Positions 2,019-22,045 of a stretch of 22,157 nt of DNA are shown in pieces. Under the pieces are notes generated by a model. It was given only the letters and a program-made list of their open reading frames with translations, did not search any database and was not told where the DNA came from. Both the position numbers and the translations under genes were made by a program. Source of the stretch: a virus; IMG/VR virus record IMGVR_UViG_3300042484_002402, positions 1 through 22,157 of that record. The stretch is one strand, 5' to 3'. Positions within the stretch are counted from its first letter, which is position 1. Every line of letters begins with the position of its first letter.

Positions 2019-2217
2019 AATAATGGAAAACGCTTCAGCAGGAGCCAGCAGCTCTGGCAGTATTGCCACTGTCGGTATGGCCATGGGCACACAAACAAGA
2101 ATGGGTGGATCACTATTAAGTGGTAAATACACCAACGATCCTACGCCTAACACGCCCAAGGAATACAAAAGGAACAAAAATGTTAGCGGACGCTTTAAAA
2201 ACACTCCTGGCAACTGA
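2005..2217 (+). CDS. Small conserved-type phage protein of unknown function (70 aa)
   Basis: The ATG at 2005 follows a perfect GGAGG at 6 bases. The product begins MRAYEIMENASAG and is followed by a Ser/Gly/Ala-rich hydrophobic stretch (residues 14-34) and a Lys/Asn/Pro-rich tail. Short proteins starting with this MxAYEIxExAS pattern are familiar from T4-like aquatic phages, but I know of no function for them. The hydrophobic stretch is too short and too small-residue-rich to call a membrane segment. The gene overlaps the preceding one by 14 bases and the Dps gene by 38 bases, in a different frame each time. Such overlap is unusual but is supported by good ribosome-binding sites for both flanking starts. 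Confidence 0.6.
   Translation: MRAYEIMENASAGASSSGSIATVGMAMGTQTRMGGSLLSGKYTNDPTPNTPKEYKRNKNVSGRFKNTPGN
2167..2173 (+). promoter_or_regulatory. Shine-Dalgarno site fixing the Dps start at 2180
   Basis: AAAAGGA ends 6 bases before the ATG at 2180. This supports the 146-residue Dps form over a longer in-frame extension from 2120, whose extra residues do not resemble the family. Confidence 0.65.
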
Positions 2218-2620
2218 ATACGCTTTCGTAATCAAAGCACAACAGTTTCACTGGAACGTCGAAGGACCTGACTTTGGTCAGTTACACAAGTTCTTTAACA
2301 TGATCTACGATGATGTTTACGGTGCAATTGATCCTACCGCCGAGTACATCCGAGCACTCAATGAATATACTCCTGGCAGCTTTGAACGTTTTGCAGAGTT
2401 ATCTCAAATTTCTGGACAAACAAAAATTCCACGTGCTCGACTTATGCTTGAAGAATTGCTGGCCAACAACGGTCAAATGATAGAATTACTCAACCAGTGC
2501 TTTGCTGAAGCTGAACAAGAAAACCAGCAAGGTATTATGGACTTTTTAGCCTCGCGTATTGATGCTCACCAAAAGCACGGCTGGATGCTGAGAAGTTACT
2601 TGAAAGATCAGCGAGCATGA
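2180..2620 (+). CDS. dps: Dps/ferritin-like protein with intact ferroxidase centre
   Basis: The 146-residue product matches the Dps family in length and core motif. FHWNVEGPDFGQLH at residues 23-36 and AIDPTAE at 49-55 supply H24, H36, D51 and E55. These have the same spacing as the ferroxidase ligands of Listeria Dps (H31, H43, D58, E62). Dps proteins form 12-subunit shells that oxidise and store iron using peroxide and protect DNA. The short N-terminus lacks the long Lys-rich tail of E. coli Dps, so DNA binding may be weak. The gene sits between small and virion-type phage genes and is coupled by ATGA overlap to the next one, so it may be expressed late. Protection of DNA from oxidative damage during infection or packaging is inferred. 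The family call is strong. Confidence 0.88.
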   Translation: MLADALKTLLATEYAFVIKAQQFHWNVEGPDFGQLHKFFNMIYDDVYGAIDPTAEYIRALNEYTPGSFERFAELSQISGQTKIPRARLMLEELLANNGQMIELLNQCFAEAEQENQQGIMDFLASRIDAHQKHGWMLRSYLKDQRA

Positions 2621-10954: not shown

Positions 10955-13618
10955 ATGAGTTATATTGACGCACTTTATGATCGTGAACACGATCGAATTC
11001 ACGTGGTAGAACGCCGCAACGGAGCTCGAGTCTACCGGGAATATCCTGCCAACTACATCTTTTACTATGATGATGCCAGAGGCAAGTTCCGCAGCATCTA
11101 CGACACACCTGTGTCGAGATTTAGCACACGCAACAACAAAGAATTTCGCAAAGAAGTTCGCATGCACTCGGGCAAGCAACTGTACGAGTCAGACATCAAT
11201 CCCATCTTTAGATGCTTAGAAGAAAACTACAAAGACCAAGACGCTCCTGAACTGTACACAGCGTTCTTTGACATTGAAGTGGACTTTGACAAAGACCGTG
11301 GATTCTCACCAGTCGACGATCCGTTTAATCCAATCACTGCTATATCAGTTTATCTAAATTGGTTGGACCAACTGGTCACACTGGCGGTTCCTCCCAAGCA
11401 CTTGAGCATGGCTACTGCACAGGAAATGGTAGCTGAGTTTGACAACACATTCTTGTTTGAAAAAGAAGAGGACATGATCAAAATGTTTCTGGACTTGATT
11501 CAAGAAGCCGACGTTCTAAGTGGCTGGAATTCAGAAGGCTATGACATTCCTTACACTATAAATCGTTGCACAAGAATTCTCAGCAAGGATGACACTCGTA
11601 AGTTTTGTTTGTGGGGACAGTTTCCTAAGAAACGTATGTTTGAACGCTTTGGTGCAGAACAAGAAACATTTGACTTGGTAGGCCGTGTACACATGGACTA
11701 TATGCAATTGTATCGCAAATACACCTACGAAGAACGTCACAGCTACAGTCTGGATGCTATTGCAGAATACGAACTGGGCGAACGCAAAACACAGTTTGAA
11801 GGTACTCTGGACCAGCTGTACAATCAACACTTTAAAACATTTATTGAATACAACAGACAAGATACTGCACTGCTGGACAAATTAGACAAAAAACTACGCT
11901 TTTTGGAATTGGCCAGTGAACTAGCACATGCCAACACTGTGTTGTTGCAGACCACAATGGGTGCTGTGGCAGTGACCGAACAGGCTATTATCAACGAAGC
12001 ACATGAGCGTGGTATGGTTGTTCCCAACCGCAAGCACAGAGACGACAGCGTTGACAATCAAGCTGCTGGTGCATATGTTGCATATCCTCGCAAGGGCATG
12101 CACGAATGGGTAGGGTCAGTTGACATCAACAGTCTGTATCCATCAGCAATTCGTGCCATGAACATGGGTCCAGAAACTGTGGTTGCGCAATTGCGGCCTG
12201 TGATGACTGACAAGTACATTCGAGAAAAGATGGCCAAGAACGGAGGCAAGTTTGCAGATGCTTGGGAAAATTTGTTTGGCAGTCTTGAATACTCTGCTGT
12301 AATGAACACAGAGCCAGGCACACAGATCACCATTGACTGGCAGGATGGTTCTGAAAGCACACACTCAGCAGCAGAAATCTGGAAGATTGTGTTTGACAGC
12401 CATCAGCCCTGGATTCTCAGCGCCAACGGTACTATTCTTACATATGAGAAGAAGGGTATTATCCCGGGATTGCTAGAACGCTGGTATTCAGAACGTAAGG
12501 ACATGCAGGCCAAGAAAAAAACAGCAACTGATCCCAAGGACATTGCGTTCTGGGACAAGCGACAACTGGTCAAGAAGATCAACTTGAACAGCTTGTATGG
12601 TGCTATTTTGAATCCCGGCTGTAGATTCTTTGACAAGCGTATTGGACAATCAACTACGCTGACAGGTCGTGCCATTGCTCGGCACATGGATGCCTACATC
12701 AACGAGTGTATCACTGGCAAATATGATCATGTGGGAGAAGCGGTTATCTACGGTGACACTGACTCATGTTATTTTAGTGCATGGTCTGTGCTTAAGACAG
12801 AAGTGGAACAAGGTCGTACGGAATGGAGCAAGGAAACTTGTATTGCTCTGTATGACTCAATTGCAGACCAGGTGAATGAATCATTCCCAGGATTTATGGA
12901 ACGTGCGTTTCATTGTCCACGAGACATGGGCGAACTGATCAAGTGCGGTCGTGAGATGGTGGCAGATCGCAGTTTGTTTATTACCAAGAAACGATACGCT
13001 GTAAACATCATTGATCTTGAAGGGAAGCGACTGGATGTGAACGGCAAGATTGGCAAAACCAAGGCCACTGGCCTGGATCTAAAACGCAGTGACACACCCA
13101 AGGTTATTCAAGACTTCTTGTTGGAAATTCTAAACAAGATTCTAAGTGGTGTGCAGCGTGATGATGTGGTCGAACACATTCGCAAATTCAAATATGAATT
13201 TATGGAGAGGCCAGGCTGGGAAAAAGGATCTCCCAAGCGTGTGAACAACTTGACCAAGTATGGTGCAGCCGAAAAAGAACAAGGCAAAGCCAACATGCCT
13301 GGTCATGTTAGGGCTGCCATGAACTGGAACAACATGCGACGAATGAACAGCGACAATTACAGCATGCAGATTGTGGACGGCATGAAAACCATTGTGTGCA
13401 AGCTCAAAAGCAATGCTCTGGGATGGACTAGTATTGGCTATCCCACAGACGAACAACGCCTGCCAGAATGGTTTAAAGAACTGCCATTTGATGACGGATT
13501 GATGGAAGCCACTGTTGTGGATCAAAAAATTGATAACTTGTTGGGTGTGCTGGAGTGGGATCTAGCAGCGGCCACCAATACTGAAAATACATTTACTAGT
13601 TTATTTGCATTTGAATGA
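10955..13618 (+). CDS. 43: Family B DNA polymerase, T4 gp43-like
   Basis: The 887-residue enzyme (T4 gp43 has 898) carries the full set of replicative motifs. Exo I is FFDIEVDF (D106, E108), Exo II is SGWNSEGYDIPY (N192, D197) and Exo III is YNRQDTALLD (Y299, D303), so proofreading should be active. Polymerase motif A is DINSLYPS (390-397), motif B is KKINLNSLYG (540-549) and motif C is YGDTDS (599-604). A KKRY segment follows. The protein ends TFTSLFAFE, resembling the C-terminal clamp-binding peptide of gp43, and a gp45-like clamp is encoded 971 bases downstream. GGAG precedes the ATG by 4 bases. The stop overlaps the next start (ATGA). It synthesises phage DNA at the replication fork. Confidence 0.97.
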   Translation: MSYIDALYDREHDRIHVVERRNGARVYREYPANYIFYYDDARGKFRSIYDTPVSRFSTRNNKEFRKEVRMHSGKQLYESDINPIFRCLEENYKDQDAPELYTAFFDIEVDFDKDRGFSPVDDPFNPITAISVYLNWLDQLVTLAVPPKHLSMATAQEMVAEFDNTFLFEKEEDMIKMFLDLIQEADVLSGWNSEGYDIPYTINRCTRILSKDDTRKFCLWGQFPKKRMFERFGAEQETFDLVGRVHMDYMQLYRKYTYEERHSYSLDAIAEYELGERKTQFEGTLDQLYNQHFKTFIEYNRQDTALLDKLDKKLRFLELASELAHANTVLLQTTMGAVAVTEQAIINEAHERGMVVPNRKHRDDSVDNQAAGAYVAYPRKGMHEWVGSVDINSLYPSAIRAMNMGPETVVAQLRPVMTDKYIREKMAKNGGKFADAWENLFGSLEYSAVMNTEPGTQITIDWQDGSESTHSAAEIWKIVFDSHQPWILSANGTILTYEKKGIIPGLLERWYSERKDMQAKKKTATDPKDIAFWDKRQLVKKINLNSLYGAILNPGCRFFDKRIGQSTTLTGRAIARHMDAYINECITGKYDHVGEAVIYGDTDSCYFSAWSVLKTEVEQGRTEWSKETCIALYDSIADQVNESFPGFMERAFHCPRDMGELIKCGREMVADRSLFITKKRYAVNIIDLEGKRLDVNGKIGKTKATGLDLKRSDTPKVIQDFLLEILNKILSGVQRDDVVEHIRKFKYEFMERPGWEKGSPKRVNNLTKYGAAEKEQGKANMPGHVRAAMNWNNMRRMNSDNYSMQIVDGMKTIVCKLKSNALGWTSIGYPTDEQRLPEWFKELPFDDGLMEATVVDQKIDNLLGVLEWDLAAATNTENTFTSLFAFE

Positions 13619-14559
13619 TACTGAGCGAAGTTGTAAAGTATAAAAACTTGCTGGATAACATGAGCATGGATCCTGCGTGTGGTGCTGCAATTGGGCACTT
13701 GGCAGGAATCATGCATGTTATTGGCGAACAATCTATTAGACTGGCCAGCGTAAACGAAAACTTAGAACTGAACTTTAACAAAGTAAAAGATTCTATATCT
13801 CTGTTCAACAATGATATTGTGGATTTAACTCGTAAGCTTCAAGCCATGATTGACACCTACGAACCGGCACTGTATCAATTGAGTCAGCGTGTGTACGAAG
13901 AAGAAATGTGCTATGAATCCAACGACTACATTCTCAATCGAAGACTAGCCATTGATCCATCTAGCAACATTATCTTGCGAGCCAGACTCAAAAGTTACAC
14001 TGACTGGAGACTGCCTGGAATGATTATCCGTCCTGGCAGAGAAAATTTTATTGAAGATCTAGTGCCGCTAGATCCTTTGTATTTTGTGGATCACAACAAC
14101 GAACTGCTTGAGCCTGCAATCGCAGCGTTTACTCCTGAATATCAACGACGTCTACGTCCCTACGAAGTCAATGATTATCGTGGCTTGCCGGCCATGCATC
14201 AACTGCCTGACAATCAGTTTGGCCTGGTATTTGCCTACAACTATTTCAACTACAAACCTATCAACGTAATACAGTCGTATTTACATGAAGTGTTTGCCAA
14301 ACTACGACCGGGGGGTGTGTTTTTGTTTACCTATAACAACTGCAATCTCTGGCACGGAGTGGCCCTGGCTGAAAAAAGTTTCATGAGTTATGTACCCGGG
14401 CATCGGCTGCGAATCATTGCAGAAAATATCGGCTATGAGATCACACACAACCACAACGGCGAAGGTGATATCAGTTGGATCGAACTTCGCAGACCTGGTC
14501 AAATTGTTTCACTGAGAGGCGGCCAGAGTGTTGCCAAAATAATTGCAAACCCGCAATAA
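13615..14559 (+). CDS. Methyltransferase-like protein with N-terminal helical region
   Basis: The 314-residue product begins with a long helical, probably coiled-coil region (about 35-95). The C-terminal part has YFVDHNNELL (156-165), then LPDNQFGLVFAYNYFNY (197-213) and FAKLRPGGVFLFTYNN (227-242). The last two resemble motifs II and III of class I S-adenosylmethionine methyltransferases, where LRPGG precedes a beta strand. The glycine-rich motif I (GxGxG) is not evident, so cofactor binding may be lost or altered. The gene is coupled to the polymerase by ATGA overlap, implying early or middle expression. A DNA- or nucleotide-modifying role would fit the location. A non-catalytic Rossmann-fold protein is a real alternative. 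Confidence 0.62.
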   Translation: MILSEVVKYKNLLDNMSMDPACGAAIGHLAGIMHVIGEQSIRLASVNENLELNFNKVKDSISLFNNDIVDLTRKLQAMIDTYEPALYQLSQRVYEEEMCYESNDYILNRRLAIDPSSNIILRARLKSYTDWRLPGMIIRPGRENFIEDLVPLDPLYFVDHNNELLEPAIAAFTPEYQRRLRPYEVNDYRGLPAMHQLPDNQFGLVFAYNYFNYKPINVIQSYLHEVFAKLRPGGVFLFTYNNCNLWHGVALAEKSFMSYVPGHRLRIIAENIGYEITHNHNGEGDISWIELRRPGQIVSLRGGQSVAKIIANPQ

Positions 14560-14571
14560 AACCTATATACT
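14543..14571 (+). promoter_or_regulatory. Sigma-70-type promoter for the clamp-dpdA operon
   Basis: TTGCAA at 14543-14548 and TATACT at 14566-14571 have a 17-base spacer and match the -35 and -10 consensus at four and five of six positions. It lies across the end of the methyltransferase-like gene and would start transcription near 14578, just before GGAG at 14581-14584 and the ATG at 14590. Confidence 0.6.
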
Positions 14572-14589
14572 AACACACAAGGAGAATTT

Positions 14590-15312
14590 ATGAGAGATTA
14601 CTTACTGGACCTGGTCCAACACACACACGATTTAGGTTGCATTGACCTAGTTAAAATTGTCGGCGACACAAATACCACAACAATTTCGGGACTAGCCGAA
14701 GATCTGAGTGTGGTAGTGCAAGCAGAATTTAAAAATCCTGTTCCAGAGTTCGTGGGCACGTTTGGTATGCCAAATTTGACCAAACTCAAGACCCTGCTGA
14801 ATCTGCAAGAATATCGCGAAGACGCCAAGCTCACAATCACCAAACGAGCAACTGGTGAACCTGATGGCATTGCATTTGAAAACAAAAACGGTGACTTCAA
14901 GAACAGCTATCGATTCATGGCAAGTGAAATTGTCAATGACAAGCTAAAAACTGCTAAGTTCAAAGGCGTCAATTGGCACATTGAGTTTGAACCCAGTGTT
15001 GCCAGCATCATGCGGTTGAAAATGCAAATGAGTGCCAACGTTGAAGAACCTAACTTTCAAGCCAAAGTTGAAAACGGTGACCTTAAGTTTTTCTTTGGCG
15101 ATCATAGCACACATGCCGGAAACTTTGTGTTTCAAGCTGGAGTCACTGGCACACTCAAACGTGCATGGTCCTGGCCAGCCACACAAGTATCTAGCATACT
15201 GGGTCTGACTGGCGATAAGATCATGCGCATCAGCGACGATGGTGCAGCACAAATCACTGTTGACTCTGGCATTGCTGTTTACAACTATATTCTTCCTGCA
15301 CAAAGCAAGTAA
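14590..15312 (+). CDS. 45: Sliding clamp (DNA polymerase processivity factor), T4 gp45-like
   Basis: The 240-residue length is close to T4 gp45 (228). The segment FVGTFGMPNLTKLKTLL at residues 54-70 matches the conserved gp45 N-terminal domain. The rest alternates beta strands and helices in the two-domain clamp manner, ending in VYNYILPAQ. The protein forms a trimeric ring that tethers the polymerase to DNA and, in T4, also activates late transcription as a mobile enhancer. GGAG precedes the ATG by 5 bases, and a promoter lies directly upstream. The stop overlaps the start of the DpdA-like gene (TAATG), so a replication protein and a probable DNA base-exchange enzyme are made from one message. 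Confidence 0.92.
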   Translation: MRDYLLDLVQHTHDLGCIDLVKIVGDTNTTTISGLAEDLSVVVQAEFKNPVPEFVGTFGMPNLTKLKTLLNLQEYREDAKLTITKRATGEPDGIAFENKNGDFKNSYRFMASEIVNDKLKTAKFKGVNWHIEFEPSVASIMRLKMQMSANVEEPNFQAKVENGDLKFFFGDHSTHAGNFVFQAGVTGTLKRAWSWPATQVSSILGLTGDKIMRISDDGAAQITVDSGIAVYNYILPAQSK

Positions 15313-16946
15313 TGACTGAGCAAGTGCAAGACAATCTAACTGCCAAGCAAAATGACTATGCTGTGTTCTTGCCGGCTATCTCTGGTTTCTACGCCACGTT
15401 TGTGGGCAAGCAACGCAACGAGCACTATGTAGATCCGGCTCGTTTTCCAACTGGGCTCACTGATATGGAACAAATGAACTGGCTCAACAGTTCTAAAGCC
15501 TTGTTTCCATACAAGTGGTCATTGTATTCGGGAGGGCACGCCAACTTGGACTTGAACAAACAGGATTGGTCAGAAGACATGGTTCGTAATCGTGAACCTG
15601 GTACATTCATGCTGGGCGACTCAGGCGGATTCCAGATTGCCAAAGGTCTATGGGAAGGTGATTGGAAAGCCAACTCAGGTTGTCCCAAAGCACAAAAGAA
15701 ACGAAGTCTAATCTTGAACTGGCTGGACAATGTAGCAGACTATGGTATGATCTTGGATATACCGACCTGGGTCATCCACGACAAGAAAGCGTCAGCCGCT
15801 TGTCAAATCACTACACTACAGGAAGCAGTAGATGCAACCAAATTCAACAATGAATACTTTATGAAACACCGTCGAGGTGTTGCTAACGGTGGTGCCAAGT
15901 TTTTGAACGTGTTACAAGGCGACAATCATACCAGTGCTGATGCTTGGTATGAAACCATGAAAGAGTATTGTGATCCTGTGAAGTATCCAGACACACACTT
16001 TGATGGTTGGAGTATGGGTGGCCAGAACATGTGTGACGTTCACTTGGTGTTAAAGCGCTTGGTGGCCCTGCGTTACGATAACTTGTTACAAGAGGGCAAG
16101 CATGATTGGATGCACTTCTTGGGCACAAGTAAACTGGAGTGGGCAGTGCTACTCACAGTTATTCAACGAGCAGTGAGAAAATATGTTAACCCTAGTTTTA
16201 CTATCTCTTTTGATTGTGCTAGTCCATTCCTTGCAACGGCGAACGGGCAAGTCTATTTTGAAAACGTTTTTGAGCACGATTCAAAGTGGTCGTACAGAAT
16301 GGCGCCGTCAGCAGACGACAAAAAGTACTCAGTAGACACTCGTAAGTGGTCAGACGGAGTAATACAAGATGGTATCTATCCTCGTTGGGAAGATAGTCCC
16401 ATAAGTGACATGCTCACTATGAAGGACATTTGCATCTACAAACCAGGTGTGGTCAAGCCCGGTATCACACTTACCCCCGAAAACTTTCAAGATCCACAAT
16501 CCTATCATGTACAGCCAGACCTAAACAAAAATGGCAAGTGGGGCAAAACAAGCTGGGATAGCTTTAGCTACGCCTTGTTGATGGGACACAATGTCTGGAT
16601 GCACTTGACAGCGGTACAAGAAGCCAATAGACGTTTTGATGCAGGTGAACATCCTGCCATGATGCAACGACAAGGTGGCGACTATGCTAAGTTTGAAGAT
16701 ATTGTAGAAGCTATTTTTGCAGCACCAGATCGTGCTACTGCCGAAGCCATTATCGAAACCTACGACAGCTACTGGATGGAGATTGTGGGCACACGAGGCT
16801 TCAAAGGCAAAAAGGCCAAGAATGCTCGGACTCAATTTAATGTATTGTTTGATTTAGAACAAACCGATGTTGACGATAATGAGGAAGATAGTGTACAATT
16901 GAATGAAGCAGCACTAAATCAACTTGAAAACGAGCAGGCAAAATGA
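15312..16946 (+). CDS. DpdA/TGT-superfamily base-exchange enzyme (candidate 7-deazaguanine DNA transglycosylase)
   Basis: The 544-residue protein has the tRNA-guanine transglycosylase signature DSGGFQ at residues 103-108 (acid-base Asp D103). LQG follows at 201-203, DGWSMGG at 231-237, FLGTSK at 269-274 and ISFDCASPF at 298-306, where D301 is at the position of the nucleophile. The Cys/His zinc cluster of tRNA-acting TGT enzymes is not seen after D301, which suits a DNA-acting DpdA rather than a tRNA enzyme. Phage DpdA inserts preQ0-derived 7-deazaguanine into DNA and blocks host restriction. The C-terminus is acidic and lacks a clear clamp-binding peptide. The gene is coupled to the clamp (TAATG) and to the next gene (ATGA). 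A tRNA substrate remains possible. Confidence 0.8.
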   Translation: MTEQVQDNLTAKQNDYAVFLPAISGFYATFVGKQRNEHYVDPARFPTGLTDMEQMNWLNSSKALFPYKWSLYSGGHANLDLNKQDWSEDMVRNREPGTFMLGDSGGFQIAKGLWEGDWKANSGCPKAQKKRSLILNWLDNVADYGMILDIPTWVIHDKKASAACQITTLQEAVDATKFNNEYFMKHRRGVANGGAKFLNVLQGDNHTSADAWYETMKEYCDPVKYPDTHFDGWSMGGQNMCDVHLVLKRLVALRYDNLLQEGKHDWMHFLGTSKLEWAVLLTVIQRAVRKYVNPSFTISFDCASPFLATANGQVYFENVFEHDSKWSYRMAPSADDKKYSVDTRKWSDGVIQDGIYPRWEDSPISDMLTMKDICIYKPGVVKPGITLTPENFQDPQSYHVQPDLNKNGKWGKTSWDSFSYALLMGHNVWMHLTAVQEANRRFDAGEHPAMMQRQGGDYAKFEDIVEAIFAAPDRATAEAIIETYDSYWMEIVGTRGFKGKKAKNARTQFNVLFDLEQTDVDDNEEDSVQLNEAALNQLENEQAK

Positions 16947-17452
16947 TTAGACCGGACCACGACGAATCAGTAAAGTTCTTTACTGGCACAGAAGTAGAAC
17001 ATACTCCTGCATTGGGAAAGAAAACTCTGTTTGTGGTAGGCGTGCAAACAGAGGATAGTATTACAGAACATCTGCTGGGAAGTGAGCACATCTACTTTGG
17101 TGCCAACCAGAGCTTTCCCAACATCCGCAACAACGATGCAGTACAATGGCAACGGTGGGAAAATATGATCCGGCCATTCTTGAACAAAGGTTATCTATGC
17201 ACCCTGGATATAGATGTCCAATGCGTGGAAGGTTTGCTAGAATGCGGATTCACTGAACACTACAATTTCATTCCAATGATATCGGTTAAGTTGCCATACA
17301 TTCAACAGCTGGGCTACAATGCCACACTCAAACTGGACGACAAAGACTTTGCTGCTACCAATCCCGGCGTTTGGTGTCACAGTGTACATAAATTACAAAG
17401 TCGTGCAGCATTCACTGACTGGTCTAAATATACCAAGGACGAAACATTATGA
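16943..17452 (+). CDS. Conserved-type phage protein of unknown function (169 aa)
   Basis: The product begins MIRPDHDESVKFFTGTEVEHTPALGKKTLFVVG and continues with HIYFGANQSFPN (residues 49-60). It has a QRWENMIRPFLNKGY helix and a CTLDIDV strand at about 90-97. I associate this pattern (FFTGTEVEHTPA plus GANQSF) with proteins of T4-like cyanophages that have no assigned function. The alternation of strands and helices suggests an alpha/beta fold. It is coupled to the DpdA-like gene and to the T-fold gene by ATGA overlaps on both sides. That makes it a candidate partner in the same pathway; nothing in the sequence shows a catalytic motif I can name. Confidence 0.65.
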   Translation: MIRPDHDESVKFFTGTEVEHTPALGKKTLFVVGVQTEDSITEHLLGSEHIYFGANQSFPNIRNNDAVQWQRWENMIRPFLNKGYLCTLDIDVQCVEGLLECGFTEHYNFIPMISVKLPYIQQLGYNATLKLDDKDFAATNPGVWCHSVHKLQSRAAFTDWSKYTKDETL

Positions 17453-17892
17453 ACCAACAACAAAGATCAACTGTAGACAGAATCATGACCGTGGCAGAAC
17501 GCAAGATCTGGATCACGTTTCGTAAAGAAGGCATACATTGCTACCCTGCTGCTGCCACAGATCCTGCACTGGCCACAGGCAACGAATACGATGTGAGTTT
17601 TTTAGGAACACCGCATCGTCACATTTTTCACTTCCGTGTGTGGATTGACGTAATTCACAACGACCGAGACATTGAGTTTATCCAGTTCAAACGTTGGCTA
17701 GAGAATCTCTACAGAGACAGCATATTGCAACTAGACTACAAAAGTTGCGAAATGATGGCAGATGATTTGTATCTGCAGATTGCTGCAAAATATCCTGACC
17801 GTGCGGTCTGGATTGAGGTAGCCGAAGATGGTGAAAACGGCGCCCTTATTAAATATCAAACTCACCGTCCTGTACAATCTCTTGCAATTTAA
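17449..17892 (+). CDS. T-fold (QueD/PTPS-like) protein candidate
   Basis: The 147-residue product has three features of 6-pyruvoyl-tetrahydropterin synthase/QueD proteins in order. EGIHCYP resembles the first zinc His (the FxAAHRLP segment). PHRHIFHFRVWIDVIH resembles the HGHxYxVxV segment with the other two zinc His. DRDIEFIQFKRWL resembles the GMVxDFxxLK segment. SCEMMADDLYLQI and VAEDGENG may match the late TAEN and ET segments. The catalytic Cys normally four residues before HGH is not present. QueD makes carboxytetrahydropterin on the route to preQ0, the base DpdA inserts, so the position two genes after a DpdA-like gene is suggestive. A non-catalytic or differently acting T-fold protein is the main alternative. 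The gene itself is secure through two-sided coupling. Confidence 0.55.
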   Translation: MNQQQRSTVDRIMTVAERKIWITFRKEGIHCYPAAATDPALATGNEYDVSFLGTPHRHIFHFRVWIDVIHNDRDIEFIQFKRWLENLYRDSILQLDYKSCEMMADDLYLQIAAKYPDRAVWIEVAEDGENGALIKYQTHRPVQSLAI

Positions 17893-17903
17893 GGAAAAAT
17901 AAA

Positions 17904-18554
17904 ATGGCCGAGCCAATCATCGACCCCAATCAGCCCCTTACAGAAATCATTGAGGATATTGATCTTGCTGCCAAGAAAGAATTTGATAGAAGAATGTTGT
18001 TGCACGGTGATGCCTATCACTATGACAATGCTGTCAGGGACGGATACGGACTGACTGTACGCACAGTAGGCAAATTTATAGGCGACTGGTCCGTTGATTT
18101 ACACATTGTTGCCCAACGAGCAGTGCAGGAACTATGGTCGTCTAAAGATATTATCTATCTGGCTGAGCTGGGCCAGGATACCCCCGATCTCAATCGAATG
18201 GTAGAAAAATTTCATTTGGATCAATTAATCACTGCTAGAGTTCAGATTCAAAAACCCGGAGACGTAGTTCTACGTCACCTCGATGATTTCTCAAAGCATG
18301 CTGGTTCTGGAAAAATAGTTACCAGATTCATAATTTTTCTAGAAGATTGGCAAGCTGGCCAATCCATGTGTTTTGGCAATACGGTGTTAGACTACTGGGA
18401 AAAAGGTCAAATAATCTATAGTAACTTTGAAAAATTTCCTCATAGCACCAGTAACTCAGGCTGGAATTCTCGCAGTATTCTACAGATTACTGGAGTAGCA
18501 TCCAGTGTTACTATTCAAAACTTGGCTTTGAATTTTGGCAACATCACTATCTAG
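17904..18554 (+). CDS. 2-Oxoglutarate/Fe(II)-dependent oxygenase-like protein
   Basis: The 216-residue protein has the HxD...H iron facial triad as H125, D127 (RHLDDF) and H180 (KFPHSTSNSG). R190 in RSILQITG is placed to bind 2-oxoglutarate. The intervening RFIIFLEDWQAGQSM and WEKGQIIYS strands fit the double-stranded beta-helix (cupin) core. These enzymes hydroxylate or oxidise peptides, nucleic acids or small molecules. AAGGA precedes the ATG by 7 bases, and the gene follows the T-fold gene after 11 bases, so it is likely the last gene of the clamp-dpdA message. Oxidation of a modified base is possible. Many T4-like cyanophages carry such oxygenases with unknown substrates. Confidence 0.78.
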   Translation: MAEPIIDPNQPLTEIIEDIDLAAKKEFDRRMLLHGDAYHYDNAVRDGYGLTVRTVGKFIGDWSVDLHIVAQRAVQELWSSKDIIYLAELGQDTPDLNRMVEKFHLDQLITARVQIQKPGDVVLRHLDDFSKHAGSGKIVTRFIIFLEDWQAGQSMCFGNTVLDYWEKGQIIYSNFEKFPHSTSNSGWNSRSILQITGVASSVTIQNLALNFGNITI

Positions 18555-18714: not shown

Positions 18715-18942
18715 ATGTCTAAAATCGCAATCAAATCAAATCCTCGTGTGCAACAGATCTTTGAGGATCTTGAACAATATCTGGAGTTCTGCCAGGACTT
18801 TGGGTACCGCTACAACGAAGCGGATCTTTACAACTTCAAAAGCTATGCCTGGCAACAGTTTAGCAAGCATGCTCAAGGCAAGAATGCCAAGAACATGTGG
18901 TGGGAAGATGCACGTCGACTTGCAGGATTTCGTCCAGCATGA
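18715..18942 (+). CDS. Small conserved-type phage protein of unknown function (75 aa)
   Basis: The ATG at 18715 follows AAAGGA with an A-rich spacer and is preferred over an in-frame TTG at 18700, which lies on top of that site. The product has a helical core NPRVQQIFEDLEQYLEFCQDFGYRYNEADLYNF at about residues 9-41, then a SYAWQQFSKHAQGKNAKNMW segment. Small proteins with this RVQxIFEDLExYLEFC and YNEADLYNFKSYAW pattern are familiar from T4-like aquatic phages, but I know no function. It is the first gene after a very strong promoter, as often seen for early host-takeover proteins. It is coupled to the next gene by ATGA overlap. Confidence 0.72.
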   Translation: MSKIAIKSNPRVQQIFEDLEQYLEFCQDFGYRYNEADLYNFKSYAWQQFSKHAQGKNAKNMWWEDARRLAGFRPA

Positions 18943-19328
18943 GCGGGTCTCGAGAAAAAGATCAGGCAGACTTTGATCTCGAGCGATTTGTTGACATGTT
19001 TGACGAAGCAATGACCAGTCAGGATCCGCGTGTGATGGATGCACTACGTGGTCTCATGATGATGGTGCTGCTGACTCGTCCCGAAATCAAAACAGAACAC
19101 AATCGCAACCACGGACCTCTGAGAAGATTGTTCGAAGACATGAATCATCTAAATAGACGTATGCATGACATGGAAGACAAAGTCAATAACATGGGTCGAT
19201 CTAGTGATTCGGCTGAAAAATATGCATACACCCATTATCCTGACAAAAAGTATGCCATGACTGCTGCACAAGCTATGGCAACGCAAATTGATCAAGAGGT
19301 ATTGAATCTAGTACAAGGACTAAAATGA
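18939..19328 (+). CDS. Helical phage protein of unknown function (129 aa)
   Basis: The ATG at 18939 overlaps the previous stop (ATGA), which supports it over an earlier in-frame ATG at 18897. The product starts MSGSREKDQADFDLERFVDMFDEAM and is almost entirely helical. A Met-rich hydrophobic run RGLMMMVLLTRPEI is followed by a heptad-like stretch at about residues 64-85 (LRRLFEDMNHLNRRMHDMED) that may form a coiled coil. No catalytic motif is visible. The stop overlaps the start of the glycosyltransferase gene, so it belongs to the same message. I do not recognise a family. It could be an adaptor or regulatory protein. Confidence 0.65.
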   Translation: MSGSREKDQADFDLERFVDMFDEAMTSQDPRVMDALRGLMMMVLLTRPEIKTEHNRNHGPLRRLFEDMNHLNRRMHDMEDKVNNMGRSSDSAEKYAYTHYPDKKYAMTAAQAMATQIDQEVLNLVQGLK

Positions 19329-20527
19329 GAAAACTATTTTATTGTGGTTTGGAGTCGTATGAAGCAAGATACACTCTACAACTGACAGAGTGGAATCGAC
19401 GTGTGTTTGATCGTCGAGGTCTTGATGTGGTATATGTGCCTGGCGAAACCCTAGACAACAGCAAGAGCATTGTGGTAGGTCAGGTGCTGGACGCACATGG
19501 TCGCAGTTATTTTGGCATGAGTCAAATGATGAATCTGGTTCGAATGATGCGTGAAGGCGAAGTCACAAGTGAAGATGTTATCTACTTTGAAGACATGTTT
19601 ACTCCAGGCATTGAGAGTTTGCCATACATCATGGACCAAATTCCTGCCAATCTAAGACCCCGTGTGTATGTACGCTGCTTGGCACAGGCCATTGATCCTG
19701 ATGATTTTGTTCATGTGTGGGGCATGGCTGGCTGGATGTCGACTTATGAAAAAATGGTCAATCACTTTGTGACAGGTGTGCTTGCTACCAACGAAGAAAT
19801 GGTTGCACACATGCGTATTGCAGGCTGGACTGCTCCTATCTACAACATATCAGGCTTGGCATTTGGCAAAGAGGAAGTGCTAGAACGCATTGGCGGCATC
19901 GAAAAAATCCGGCCATTTGAAGAACGCAAACGGCGTGTGGGGTTTGCAGCCAGATTTGATCAAGAGAAGCAGCCGGGCTTCTTCATGGATCTGATTGAGA
20001 TGTATGGTGAACTCACTAGCGAGCCTTGTGAGTTTGCCATCTACTCTGGCGGTGCATTGCGCAGCAACAATCCTGAATTTGTGACCCGTGCCAGAGCCAT
20101 GGAAGCGGCCGGCAAGTTAAAAATCTATGATAACATAAGCAAGAATGAATACTATGCTTTCCTTAATGATACTCGTGTGCTCTTTAATTGTGCTTTACAA
20201 GACTGGGTTTCCAACACCGTCAGTGAAGCAGACACTCTGGGCTGTAATGTGCTTTACCCTGCTTATCGCAGTTTCCCTGAAACCTTTGCAAACGATCCTA
20301 ATCGACTTTATGTTCCTTGGAGCATAGATGACGCTTACCACAAGATGCAGAACTTGTTGCGTGAACCGCATCACAACATGGGTTTGATTTCGGACTGGAA
20401 CAACGGCACTGTGGATCGTGTGGTTGACATCATTGAAGGCCATGGTGAACAATGGAATCGTGCAGGCAATCGTTATCGTGATCATGTTGCTCACGAAAAA
20501 TATCAAGTGGTAAAAATACAATCATGA
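19325..20527 (+). CDS. GT-B-fold glycosyltransferase-like protein (400 aa)
   Basis: The protein has a two-domain layout typical of GT-B transferases. An N-terminal Rossmann-like half contains VIYFEDMFTPGIESLPYI, and the second half opens with KRRVGFAARFDQEKQPGFFMD (residues 202-222). A late FNCALQDWVSNTVSEADTLG (about 291-310) matches the donor-binding SEAxxxG segment of family 4-like transferases, where the Glu contacts the nucleotide sugar. It has the same length as T4 alpha-glucosyltransferase but does not look homologous to it. It is coupled by ATGA to a GalE-like epimerase, which could supply its UDP-sugar donor. Whether it glycosylates phage DNA, a virion protein or a host glycan cannot be told from the sequence. 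Confidence 0.75.
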   Translation: MRKLFYCGLESYEARYTLQLTEWNRRVFDRRGLDVVYVPGETLDNSKSIVVGQVLDAHGRSYFGMSQMMNLVRMMREGEVTSEDVIYFEDMFTPGIESLPYIMDQIPANLRPRVYVRCLAQAIDPDDFVHVWGMAGWMSTYEKMVNHFVTGVLATNEEMVAHMRIAGWTAPIYNISGLAFGKEEVLERIGGIEKIRPFEERKRRVGFAARFDQEKQPGFFMDLIEMYGELTSEPCEFAIYSGGALRSNNPEFVTRARAMEAAGKLKIYDNISKNEYYAFLNDTRVLFNCALQDWVSNTVSEADTLGCNVLYPAYRSFPETFANDPNRLYVPWSIDDAYHKMQNLLREPHHNMGLISDWNNGTVDRVVDIIEGHGEQWNRAGNRYRDHVAHEKYQVVKIQS

Positions 20528-21468
20528 ACATAGTAATAACAGGTGCAGCCGGTTACATTGGCGGGCAAATTGCCTTACAGCTCAAGGATGCAGGGCACGC
20601 CATAACAGGGATTGATCGTAGACCCCTGCCAACGCATCTTACAGGTATTATGGATTTTGTGCAAGCAGACTTTGACTGTAATGAATCCTTCAAGAAACTG
20701 CTTGATGTCAGGCCAGATGCTGTTGTACACTGTGCTGGTTCCAGCCTGGTTGGCCCCAGCATGAAAACTCCCAGCGACTACTATCACAACAACATGGCCA
20801 AAACCATGCACCTGTTGGACTTTGTGTTGGCAGCCATGCCACAGACTAGAATTATTTTTAGTTCAAGCGCCGCGGTGTACGGTGAGCCAGTTATGGCTAA
20901 TTGTCACGAAGTTGATCCCAAAGAACCTATCAGTCCTTATGGCGAAAGCAAGCTGATGATTGACTGGATGCTGGAAGCATACCGACGTGCGTATGGTCTT
21001 GATTATGTCAGCTTTCGTTATTTCAATGCGTGTGGAGCTGATGCTCAAAAGCGACATGGTCAAGAACCTGGTGCTACTCACATTATTGCGCGAGTTTTAG
21101 AATGTTTGCGTGATGACGCTGAGTTCACACTGAATGGCACCAACTATCCCACGCCGGATGGCACTTGCATTCGCGACTATGTACATGTGGAAGACATTGC
21201 TCGAGCTCATGCTCTTGCTCTAGATCGTGCTGTGCCAGCTGGAGTATATAATCTAGGTTCTGGTACAGGCATCAGCAACCGAGAAATCATTGCTGCGGCA
21301 GAACGCATCACTGGCAAAGAACTAAAAATTATATCCGGTAAACAACGTGACGGTGATCCTCCGTTGTTAACCGCCAGTGCAGGCAAGTTTAATTCAGTAG
21401 CAGATCAGTGGCAACAACATGATCTTGACGCCATGATCGGTCATGCTTGGGCGTGGTATGTTCGATAA
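20524..21468 (+). CDS. galE: NAD-dependent sugar epimerase, GalE-like
   Basis: The 314-residue protein is an extended short-chain dehydrogenase/reductase. The NAD-binding GAAGYIG is at residues 7-13, FSSSAAVYG at 112-120 contains the catalytic Ser, and SPYGESK at 137-143 gives Y139 and K143. RYFNACGAD at 165-173 is typical of UDP-glucose 4-epimerase. It would interconvert UDP-glucose and UDP-galactose or a related pair in the cytosol. It is slightly shorter than bacterial GalE (about 338). It is coupled to the glycosyltransferase upstream and overlaps the aminotransferase-like gene downstream by 11 bases. The three probably form a nucleotide-sugar pathway. A 4,6-dehydratase or another epimerase of the family is a lesser alternative. 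Confidence 0.9.
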   Translation: MNIVITGAAGYIGGQIALQLKDAGHAITGIDRRPLPTHLTGIMDFVQADFDCNESFKKLLDVRPDAVVHCAGSSLVGPSMKTPSDYYHNNMAKTMHLLDFVLAAMPQTRIIFSSSAAVYGEPVMANCHEVDPKEPISPYGESKLMIDWMLEAYRRAYGLDYVSFRYFNACGADAQKRHGQEPGATHIIARVLECLRDDAEFTLNGTNYPTPDGTCIRDYVHVEDIARAHALALDRAVPAGVYNLGSGTGISNREIIAAAERITGKELKIISGKQRDGDPPLLTASAGKFNSVADQWQQHDLDAMIGHAWAWYVR

Positions 21469-22045
21469 GATTCTAAAGTTTGAGCAAGCACTAGCAGAGT
21501 TCACTGGCGCACCTTATGTGATCATGACTGATTGCTGCACACATGCCATTGAACTTTGTCTACGCCATGATCGAGTACGAAGCTGTAGCTTTACTGCATT
21601 TACCTATCTGAGTGTGGCCATGACCATGCACAAACTGGGTATCAAGTATGGCCTGGAAAACGAAATCTGGACTGGTGAGTATCACATTCATGACACACGG
21701 ATCTGGGACAGTGCTCGAAGACTGGAAAAGAACATGTATCGATCTGGCGCCATGCAGTGTCTGAGTTTCGGGCATGGTAAACCCCTGCACATTGGTCGCG
21801 GTGGTGCCATATTGTTGGATGACTCAGCAGCATACGAGACCATGATCCGTCAACGCTATGATGGTCGCGATCTTGATATCACACCCTGGCAAACACAACA
21901 CACATTTCAAGTTGGCTATCACTACAAGCCCACTCCCGAAGAAGCTGTTCAGGGCCTGGCCATGTTGGTAGGTATCAAGGAACAAGGCTGTACTCCAGTA
22001 CATGTTGTGTATCCAGATTTAAGAAACATTACCATAGTAGATTGA
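21458..22045 (+). CDS. Compact DegT/DnrJ-like PLP aminotransferase homologue (195 aa)
   Basis: The ATG at 21458 lies in the last codons of galE. A start 15 bases earlier (21443) is also open. KFEQALAEFTGAPYVIMTDCCTHAIEL (residues 7-33) matches the N-terminus of sugar aminotransferases of the DegT group. SFGHGKPLHIGRGGAILLDD (103-122) matches the segment holding the PLP-linked Lys, here K108. RQRYDGRD follows at 131-138. Typical members are about 370 residues, so this is roughly half length and ends soon after the Lys domain. The ending is clean, with no downstream remnant, so it looks like a compact form rather than a broken gene. Such short homologues are known to me from aquatic phages. With GalE and the transferase it may make an amino sugar, if it is active. 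Confidence 0.78.
   Translation: MFDKILKFEQALAEFTGAPYVIMTDCCTHAIELCLRHDRVRSCSFTAFTYLSVAMTMHKLGIKYGLENEIWTGEYHIHDTRIWDSARRLEKNMYRSGAMQCLSFGHGKPLHIGRGGAILLDDSAAYETMIRQRYDGRDLDITPWQTQHTFQVGYHYKPTPEEAVQGLAMLVGIKEQGCTPVHVVYPDLRNITIVD

Follow-up and report, generated by a model that had tools for sequence, protein, structure and literature searches.

A fragment of a freshwater phage genome, the virus record IMGVR_UViG_3300042484_002402 (22,157 bases; this whole stretch is called the window), carries a cassette built around an enzyme of the DpdA type. DpdA inserts 7-deazaguanine into phage DNA. We lean towards the view that the cassette directs an exchange of guanine after replication, tethered to the sliding clamp and probably followed by glycosylation, with the precursor base made by a pathway that lacks QueC. 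Gene order, its conservation, a TGT fold, sequence motifs, the absence of queC from the larger relatives, the linkage of a glycosyltransferase (GT) gene and the likeness of the DpdA tail to a polymerase tail were all obtained by computation; from these we infer the identity of the base, the chemistry of a T-fold-like protein, clamp binding and glycosylation. FolE, QueD and QueE, encoded beyond the end of the fragment if the relatives are a guide, would make 7-carboxy-7-deazaguanine (CDG), and the T-fold-like protein would process it without QueC, by decarboxylation or other chemistry. DpdA would swap guanine in already replicated DNA for the processed base; its tail would dock on the clamp encoded just upstream, so that the exchange follows the fork. 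The GT, supplied by the products of an epimerase and a DegT gene, would attach a sugar to the base once it is inserted. The likely benefit would be protection against host restriction, which has been demonstrated in other phages with DpdA (PMC6884629).

Five successive open reading frames (ORFs) on the + strand encode a putative sliding clamp (14590-15312; 240 amino acids (aa); phrog_12062), the 544-aa DpdA-type DNA guanine transglycosylase (15312-16946), a conserved alpha/beta protein of 169 aa called u169 (16943-17452), the T-fold-like protein (17449-17892; phrog_17812) and a 2-oxoglutarate/Fe(II) oxygenase-like accessory protein (17904-18554). A sequence-only reading of the window had described these genes as a promoter-led DNA-modification operon, the first four joined by 4-base overlaps. 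The order and the common strand agree with the ORF list. Overlaps of 4 bases join dpdA to u169 and u169 to the T-fold-like gene only; clamp and dpdA overlap by 1 base (TAATG), and the oxygenase frame starts after an 11-base gap. A promoter-like site precedes the clamp gene (14543-14571, 9 of 12 matching), but 6 kb of sequence hold 17 such sites and shuffled sequence 11.1 +/- 3.2; the count is near chance, and the site therefore provides no evidence for a separate promoter.

Sequence searches of Pfam, PHROG, NCBIfam and PDB with the five products gave no over-cut-off family of known function, and with the 544-aa protein they gave nothing. For DpdA the Pfam absence carries little weight, because PF01702 fails to detect the window enzyme. 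Twenty-two sequences of the window family went into an AlphaFold model of the 544-aa protein (mean pLDDT 66, pTM 0.72). This model matched TGT structures with VIA Z of 16-17.7, TGTs being all of the 50 matches listed, and its top Foldseek match was 2pwu (E 1e-4). The DSGGFQ, SMGG and SFDCAS motifs noticed earlier are present at residues 103-108, 234-237 and 299-304; DSGGFQ (15618-15635, +) corresponds to the D102 region of TGT, and SFDCAS (16206-16223, +), with the presumed nucleophile D301, to the D280 region. D103 and D301 are both invariant in 25 sequences, including those of PA5oct, Phosso and Vibrio phage 2.275.O. The window protein has the fold and the catalytic aspartate motifs in common with TGT; it differs in its length of 544 aa, its polymerase-like tail, its replication neighbours and the absence of the CxCxxC zinc motif in a motif scan. 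The TGT fold and the catalytic motifs, without CxCxxC, therefore indicate a transglycosylase of the DpdA type. Its family aligned with the DpdA2 profile in hhalign (94%, P 1e-7, 195 columns), while tblastn with the window DpdA did not reach nt-1 or X1, and scans of viral contigs with the DpdA of PA5oct and of Vibrio phage 2.275.O gave no matches. DpdA2 relatives are tied to DNA modification in Vibrio phage nt-1 (Hutinet et al. 2019, PMC6884629). The nt-1 DpdA2 has the same TGT fold, DSGG and D-nucleophile and the same link to folE, queD and queE; the window enzyme belongs to a different subfamily, and its cassette is without queC or amidotransferase and has T-fold, GT and clamp genes attached. 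The 544-aa protein is best named a DpdA-type enzyme whose subfamily is only remotely related to DpdA2, and the earlier DpdA/TGT-like call is borne out by the predicted fold, the catalytic motifs and the folE, queD and queE genes of relatives. A TGT match with its zinc site intact, which would have counted against that call, was not what the model and the motif scan showed.

Other known or candidate exchange enzymes were seen in related settings. In Vibrio phage 2.275.O (L083:7905-10835) the gene after a DpdA of the window's subfamily encodes an Amidoligase_2 protein (PF12224, E 1.8e-4, at the cut-off), with QueF, QueC, YhhQ and FolE nearby, so that the base may there be extended by an amide bond. 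Proteins of 259-290 aa with TGT-like motifs (L112:12816-13595 in phiST, L118:9683-10540 in D479, L117:9417-10289 in Ahp1) lie near the T-fold genes of these phages and may be a second, smaller exchange enzyme; in phiST and D479 kinase-like genes are also found near the T-fold gene, that of D479 being annotated as a dNMP kinase.

Conservation of the neighbourhood was counted in 80 viral loci, 73 of which had enough sequence for the upstream count and 46 at least 4.5 kb for the downstream count. The family B DNA polymerase gene (polB) and the clamp gene lie upstream of dpdA in 73/73 loci. Downstream, u169, the T-fold-like protein, a small 75-aa protein (18715-18942, +), a GT-B-like glycosyltransferase (19325-20527, +) and an NAD-dependent sugar epimerase (20524-21468, +; PF01370, E 7e-55) are encoded in 46/46, and a short DegT/DnrJ/EryC1 family protein (21443-22045, +; PF01041, E 4.5e-14) in 41/46. 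The oxygenase occurs in 5/46 loci, with more than 30% identity in one only. Since the oxygenase is rare and the GT and epimerase are universal, the conserved unit extends past the span first drawn, 14590-18554, and excludes the oxygenase. The neighbours are placed non-randomly in related genomes. Of the proposed operon, a DpdA-type enzyme in a DNA-modification setting is supported and the oxygenase as a pathway partner is not; the conserved GT, epimerase and DegT genes just outside the span had been missed, as had the absence of queC described below. One relative has the order clamp, dpdA, u169, T-fold-like gene, GT, epimerase, DegT and folE, with queD and then queE further on. Such loci are common: at least 599 stretches in one viral collection are related to the window DpdA, and 380 to DpdA2.

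Genes for precursor synthesis were searched for in 17 genomes, namely 14 larger relatives, PA5oct, Phosso and Vibrio phage 2.275.O. As the sequence-only reading had suggested, folE, queC, queD and queE were all included. folE was found in 16/17, queD in 15/17 and queE in 14/17, placed 5-15 kb downstream in relatives; those of one relative have family-level NCBIfam support, below the equivalog cut-offs. queC exceeded the cut-off in a single one of the 17, Vibrio phage 2.275.O. With no queC in the larger relatives, synthesis would be expected to end at CDG, which should be the precursor base. Among other isolates with the T-fold gene, queC was not seen in ACP17, phiST, RHph_I1_18, Ahp1, MA9V-3, Bakedbeans or BUCT-ZZ01; D479 gave a partial match over the cut-off, whereas the match in X1 is sub-threshold and lies at a distance from the cassette. 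A phosphoribosyltransferase gene is found near QueE in two unrelated cassette lineages (L116:9093-9554, L206:13524-14051). The QueD-like PF01242 proteins of T-fold phages retain the Cys and Asp-His, but most have zinc His 1 and 3 replaced (RQW, HGY); PA5oct encodes both such a protein and a canonical QueD.

The T-fold-like protein may act on CDG in the place of QueC. It had been described as QueD-like, a description that would hold at the level of the fold and does not extend to QueD identity. The alignment shows His30, His56, His58, Glu101 and Glu126 kept at QueD-like places, a His triad and Glu positions resembling those of QueD/6-pyruvoyltetrahydropterin synthase (PF01242). In contrast to QueD, none of the 18 family members matched PF01242, and the catalytic Cys of CxxxHGH is absent, no Cys lying four residues before H56 in the alignment; the hhalign match of the family to a QueD-like profile was moderate (79%) and over 43 columns only. 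Moreover, the protein is not the QueD, because relatives hold a separate PF01242 gene besides it. Most phages that carry the T-fold-like gene have it adjoining TGT/DpdA, FolE or QueE genes. Cui et al. reportedly described, in 2023, dCDG, dDG and a CDG decarboxylase, DpdL, in phages; the T-fold-like protein could be DpdL. Such CDG/DG-type pathways are said to be without QueC, as here, and in Cellulophaga phage phiST the T-fold family stands beside QueD, QueE and FolE. We know of neither a GT nor a clamp-like tail from that work. In Vibrio phage Bakedbeans (L115:11182-12363) one protein joins the T-fold domain to about 260 N-terminal residues of no recognised family.

The GT gene is linked to DpdA and T-fold genes in isolated phages. 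When the window GT was compared by tblastn with 50,697 phage records, only three matches were obtained, in BUCT-ZZ01 (66%) and in ACP17 and X1 (23-24%), and in each the GT adjoins a DpdA or T-fold gene. By profile searches, further GT genes were located in PA5oct, immediately 3' of dpdA, and in Phosso, where the T-fold gene precedes it. The window protein matches the GT1/GT4 Pfam families below the cut-off (PF00534/PF13524), and its X1 homologue is over it (PF00534, E 8e-12). Of the 80 viral DpdA2 loci, 64 have both T-fold and GT genes; three have queC, and these lack both (Fisher P 0.007; some loci are cut short where a contig ends). This linkage suggests that the GT probably acts on the inserted base. 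Two further gene arrangements were observed. Xanthomonas phage X1 (L114:7843-9031) has, between FolE and the run GT-DpdA-T-fold-QueE, a PAPS-reductase-family gene and a PIG-L/LmbE deacetylase-like protein, possibly for tailoring of the sugar. In BUCT-ZZ01 (L116:11010-12353) a second GT-like protein directly 5' of DpdA ends with SLEDFFND, like the DpdA tail SLDSFFD.

A link between modification and the clamp had been proposed from gene order, and it gains independent evidence from the DpdA tail. The polymerase encoded by polB (10955-13618, +; PF00136, PF03104, phrog_262) ends with FTSLFAFE (nt 13592-13615), a putative clamp-binding tail. It is resembled by FNVLFDLE (nt 16836-16859, +) in the DpdA tail, a putative clamp-binding peptide in a part of the model that is disordered (pLDDT <50). 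Most polymerases of the window family terminate in FTSLF[ASDE]FE, and most of its DpdA tails contain FN[AV]LF[DSE][FL]E. The pattern F[TNSD].LF.[FWLY] is present in 61/64 polB and 45/66 DpdA proteins, compared with 1 of about 520 members of 21 other window gene families and 6 occurrences in 865,000 background residues. The polymerase and DpdA of the same phage also end alike in ACP17 (SLDDLFE/TLDELFE), X1 (SLESLFG/SLEELFG), Vibrio phage 2.275.O (NTDLFDW/NNDLFGW) and YB07 (SLEDLFGW/SLDDLFG), and the DpdA of PA5oct likewise resembles its own polymerase tail. Finally, a polymerase-like end tag, LEDLF/LDELF, is carried by 56/76 viral DpdA2 proteins versus 2/985 other ORFs, one of which is a polymerase piece. 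In T4, gp43, gp55 and gp33 bind the clamp through C-terminal motifs that can replace one another (PMC2988020). The T4 clamp, gp45, is also bound by alpha-glucosyltransferase (PMC13216743), so that a DNA-modifying enzyme is recruited by the clamp as proposed here. The T4 enzyme acts on hydroxymethylcytosine, whereas in the window the tagged protein is the base exchanger and the evidence comes from sequence only. The 240-aa protein itself had no profile match to known clamps, and hhalign of its family against two T4-like clamps gave none. Its homologues in Phosso and PAC2 were named clamp/PCNA by their depositors, and a gp45-type clamp was not found elsewhere in the large relatives. Support for the earlier sliding-clamp call comes from the position after polB, the depositor names and the polymerase tail, and none from the profile searches; we keep the protein as a putative clamp.

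Several points weigh against guanine exchange at the clamp followed by glycosylation. The window record stops before folE, queD and queE, whose presence in this phage is taken from the relatives. Large phages often carry sugar genes for other purposes. In addition, no GT was detected around the T-fold gene in the regions of phiST, D479, Ahp1, RHph_I1_18, Bakedbeans and MA9V-3, so that the T-fold protein does not require a GT. The same DpdA pathway could yield an unglycosylated 7-deazaguanine or CDG, with the T-fold protein a CDG decarboxylase or second pathway enzyme and the GT and sugar genes acting elsewhere, for example on the host surface or on virion proteins. The phiST, D479, Ahp1 and RHph_I1_18 regions speak for such a product, as do the dDG, dCDG and DpdL that Cui et al. 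are said to have described. However, the GT family is confined in isolates to DpdA/T-fold neighbourhoods and accompanies 64/80 DpdA2 loci and every one of the 46 relatives, and we regard an unglycosylated product as fairly unlikely. It is very improbable that the transglycosylase modifies tRNA, like TGT, and that the cassette tunes translation. The TGT fold and catalytic motifs would suit this, and the X1 homologue was deposited as a queuine tRNA-ribosyltransferase; the missing CxCxxC, the polymerase and clamp neighbours, the polymerase-like tail and the connection of DpdA2 with DNA modification in nt-1 (PMC6884629) argue against it.

The sequence-only reading had the oxygenase and u169 tailor the same base. 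Both adjoin the T-fold-like gene in the window, a 29% identical oxygenase occupies the same slot in one other locus (L060), and u169, present in 46/46 relatives as well as in PA5oct and ACP17, stands beside folE in ACP17. The oxygenase has candidate iron-site residues (HLD 125-127 and H180) with a PF05118 match below the cut-off (E 0.059). Its rarity among the relatives and the unrelated genes that fill its slot elsewhere do not fit a partner acting on the base, and tailoring by the two proteins seems improbable. The u169 model (pLDDT 81) had top fold matches below the significance level. A degenerate QueE was considered for u169 (full-length VIA matches to 6nhl, Z 5.9, and 5th5, Z 5.5); hhalign gave no support, and STAS/RsbS folds outscored these matches (Z about 7, not significant). 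As to the tail, its similarity could be due to chance or could be real and serve another partner, the nearness of clamp and polymerase genes reflecting early or middle expression only. The lack of any profile confirming the clamp favours this, and so does the lack of a clear tail match in the DpdA2 of nt-1 and pf16 and in the DpdA of Phosso. The tail patterns were written after examples had been seen; related sequences are not independent, tagged DpdA2 proteins being 15/22 after clustering at 70% identity; and in T4, clamp binding by alpha-glucosyltransferase is not the main cause of its modification share (PMC13216743). Against this stand the matches of DpdA to its own polymerase in several unrelated phages and the contrasts of 56/76 with 2/985 and of 45/66 with 1 in about 520, which make another partner or chance fairly unlikely in our judgement.

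To our knowledge, glycosylated 7-deazaguanine in DNA has not been described, and none of the papers searched deals with it or with DNA modification in phages like PA5oct. The parts of the cassette are of known kinds; their combination and the tag are, as far as we know, new. Tentatively, and with less confidence than in our main reading, we suggest a widespread phage family with glycosylated 7-deazaguanine DNA, in which QueC has no part in making the base and a clamp-riding enzyme that bears a copy of the polymerase tail inserts it. The tag would offer a concrete answer to the question of how DpdA finds new DNA. If the GT acts on the base, a sugar-bearing guanine would join the sugar-bearing pyrimidines of phage DNA, which would bear on restriction, on CRISPR and on the recognition of sugar-modified DNA by type IV enzymes. 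GT genes beside DpdA or T-fold genes occur in the isolated phages PA5oct, ACP17, X1, BUCT-ZZ01 and Phosso. Pulsed-field gels gave a PA5oct genome of about 375 kbp (PMC3936114), whereas the sequence has 286,783 bp, a gap that could come from terminal redundancy or from modified DNA running slowly.

Between polB and the clamp gene lies a fast-evolving conserved gene (13615-14559, +) with a weak methyltransferase-like domain (sub-cutoff PF08241/PF13649). It is kept in 72/73 relatives, in which polB and the next gene usually share a 4-base overlap. Elsewhere in the window are two radical SAM proteins (PF04055; 673-1692, -, and 6328-7170, +) and a product, at 2120-2620 (+), that by eye looks to be of the Dps/ferritin type.

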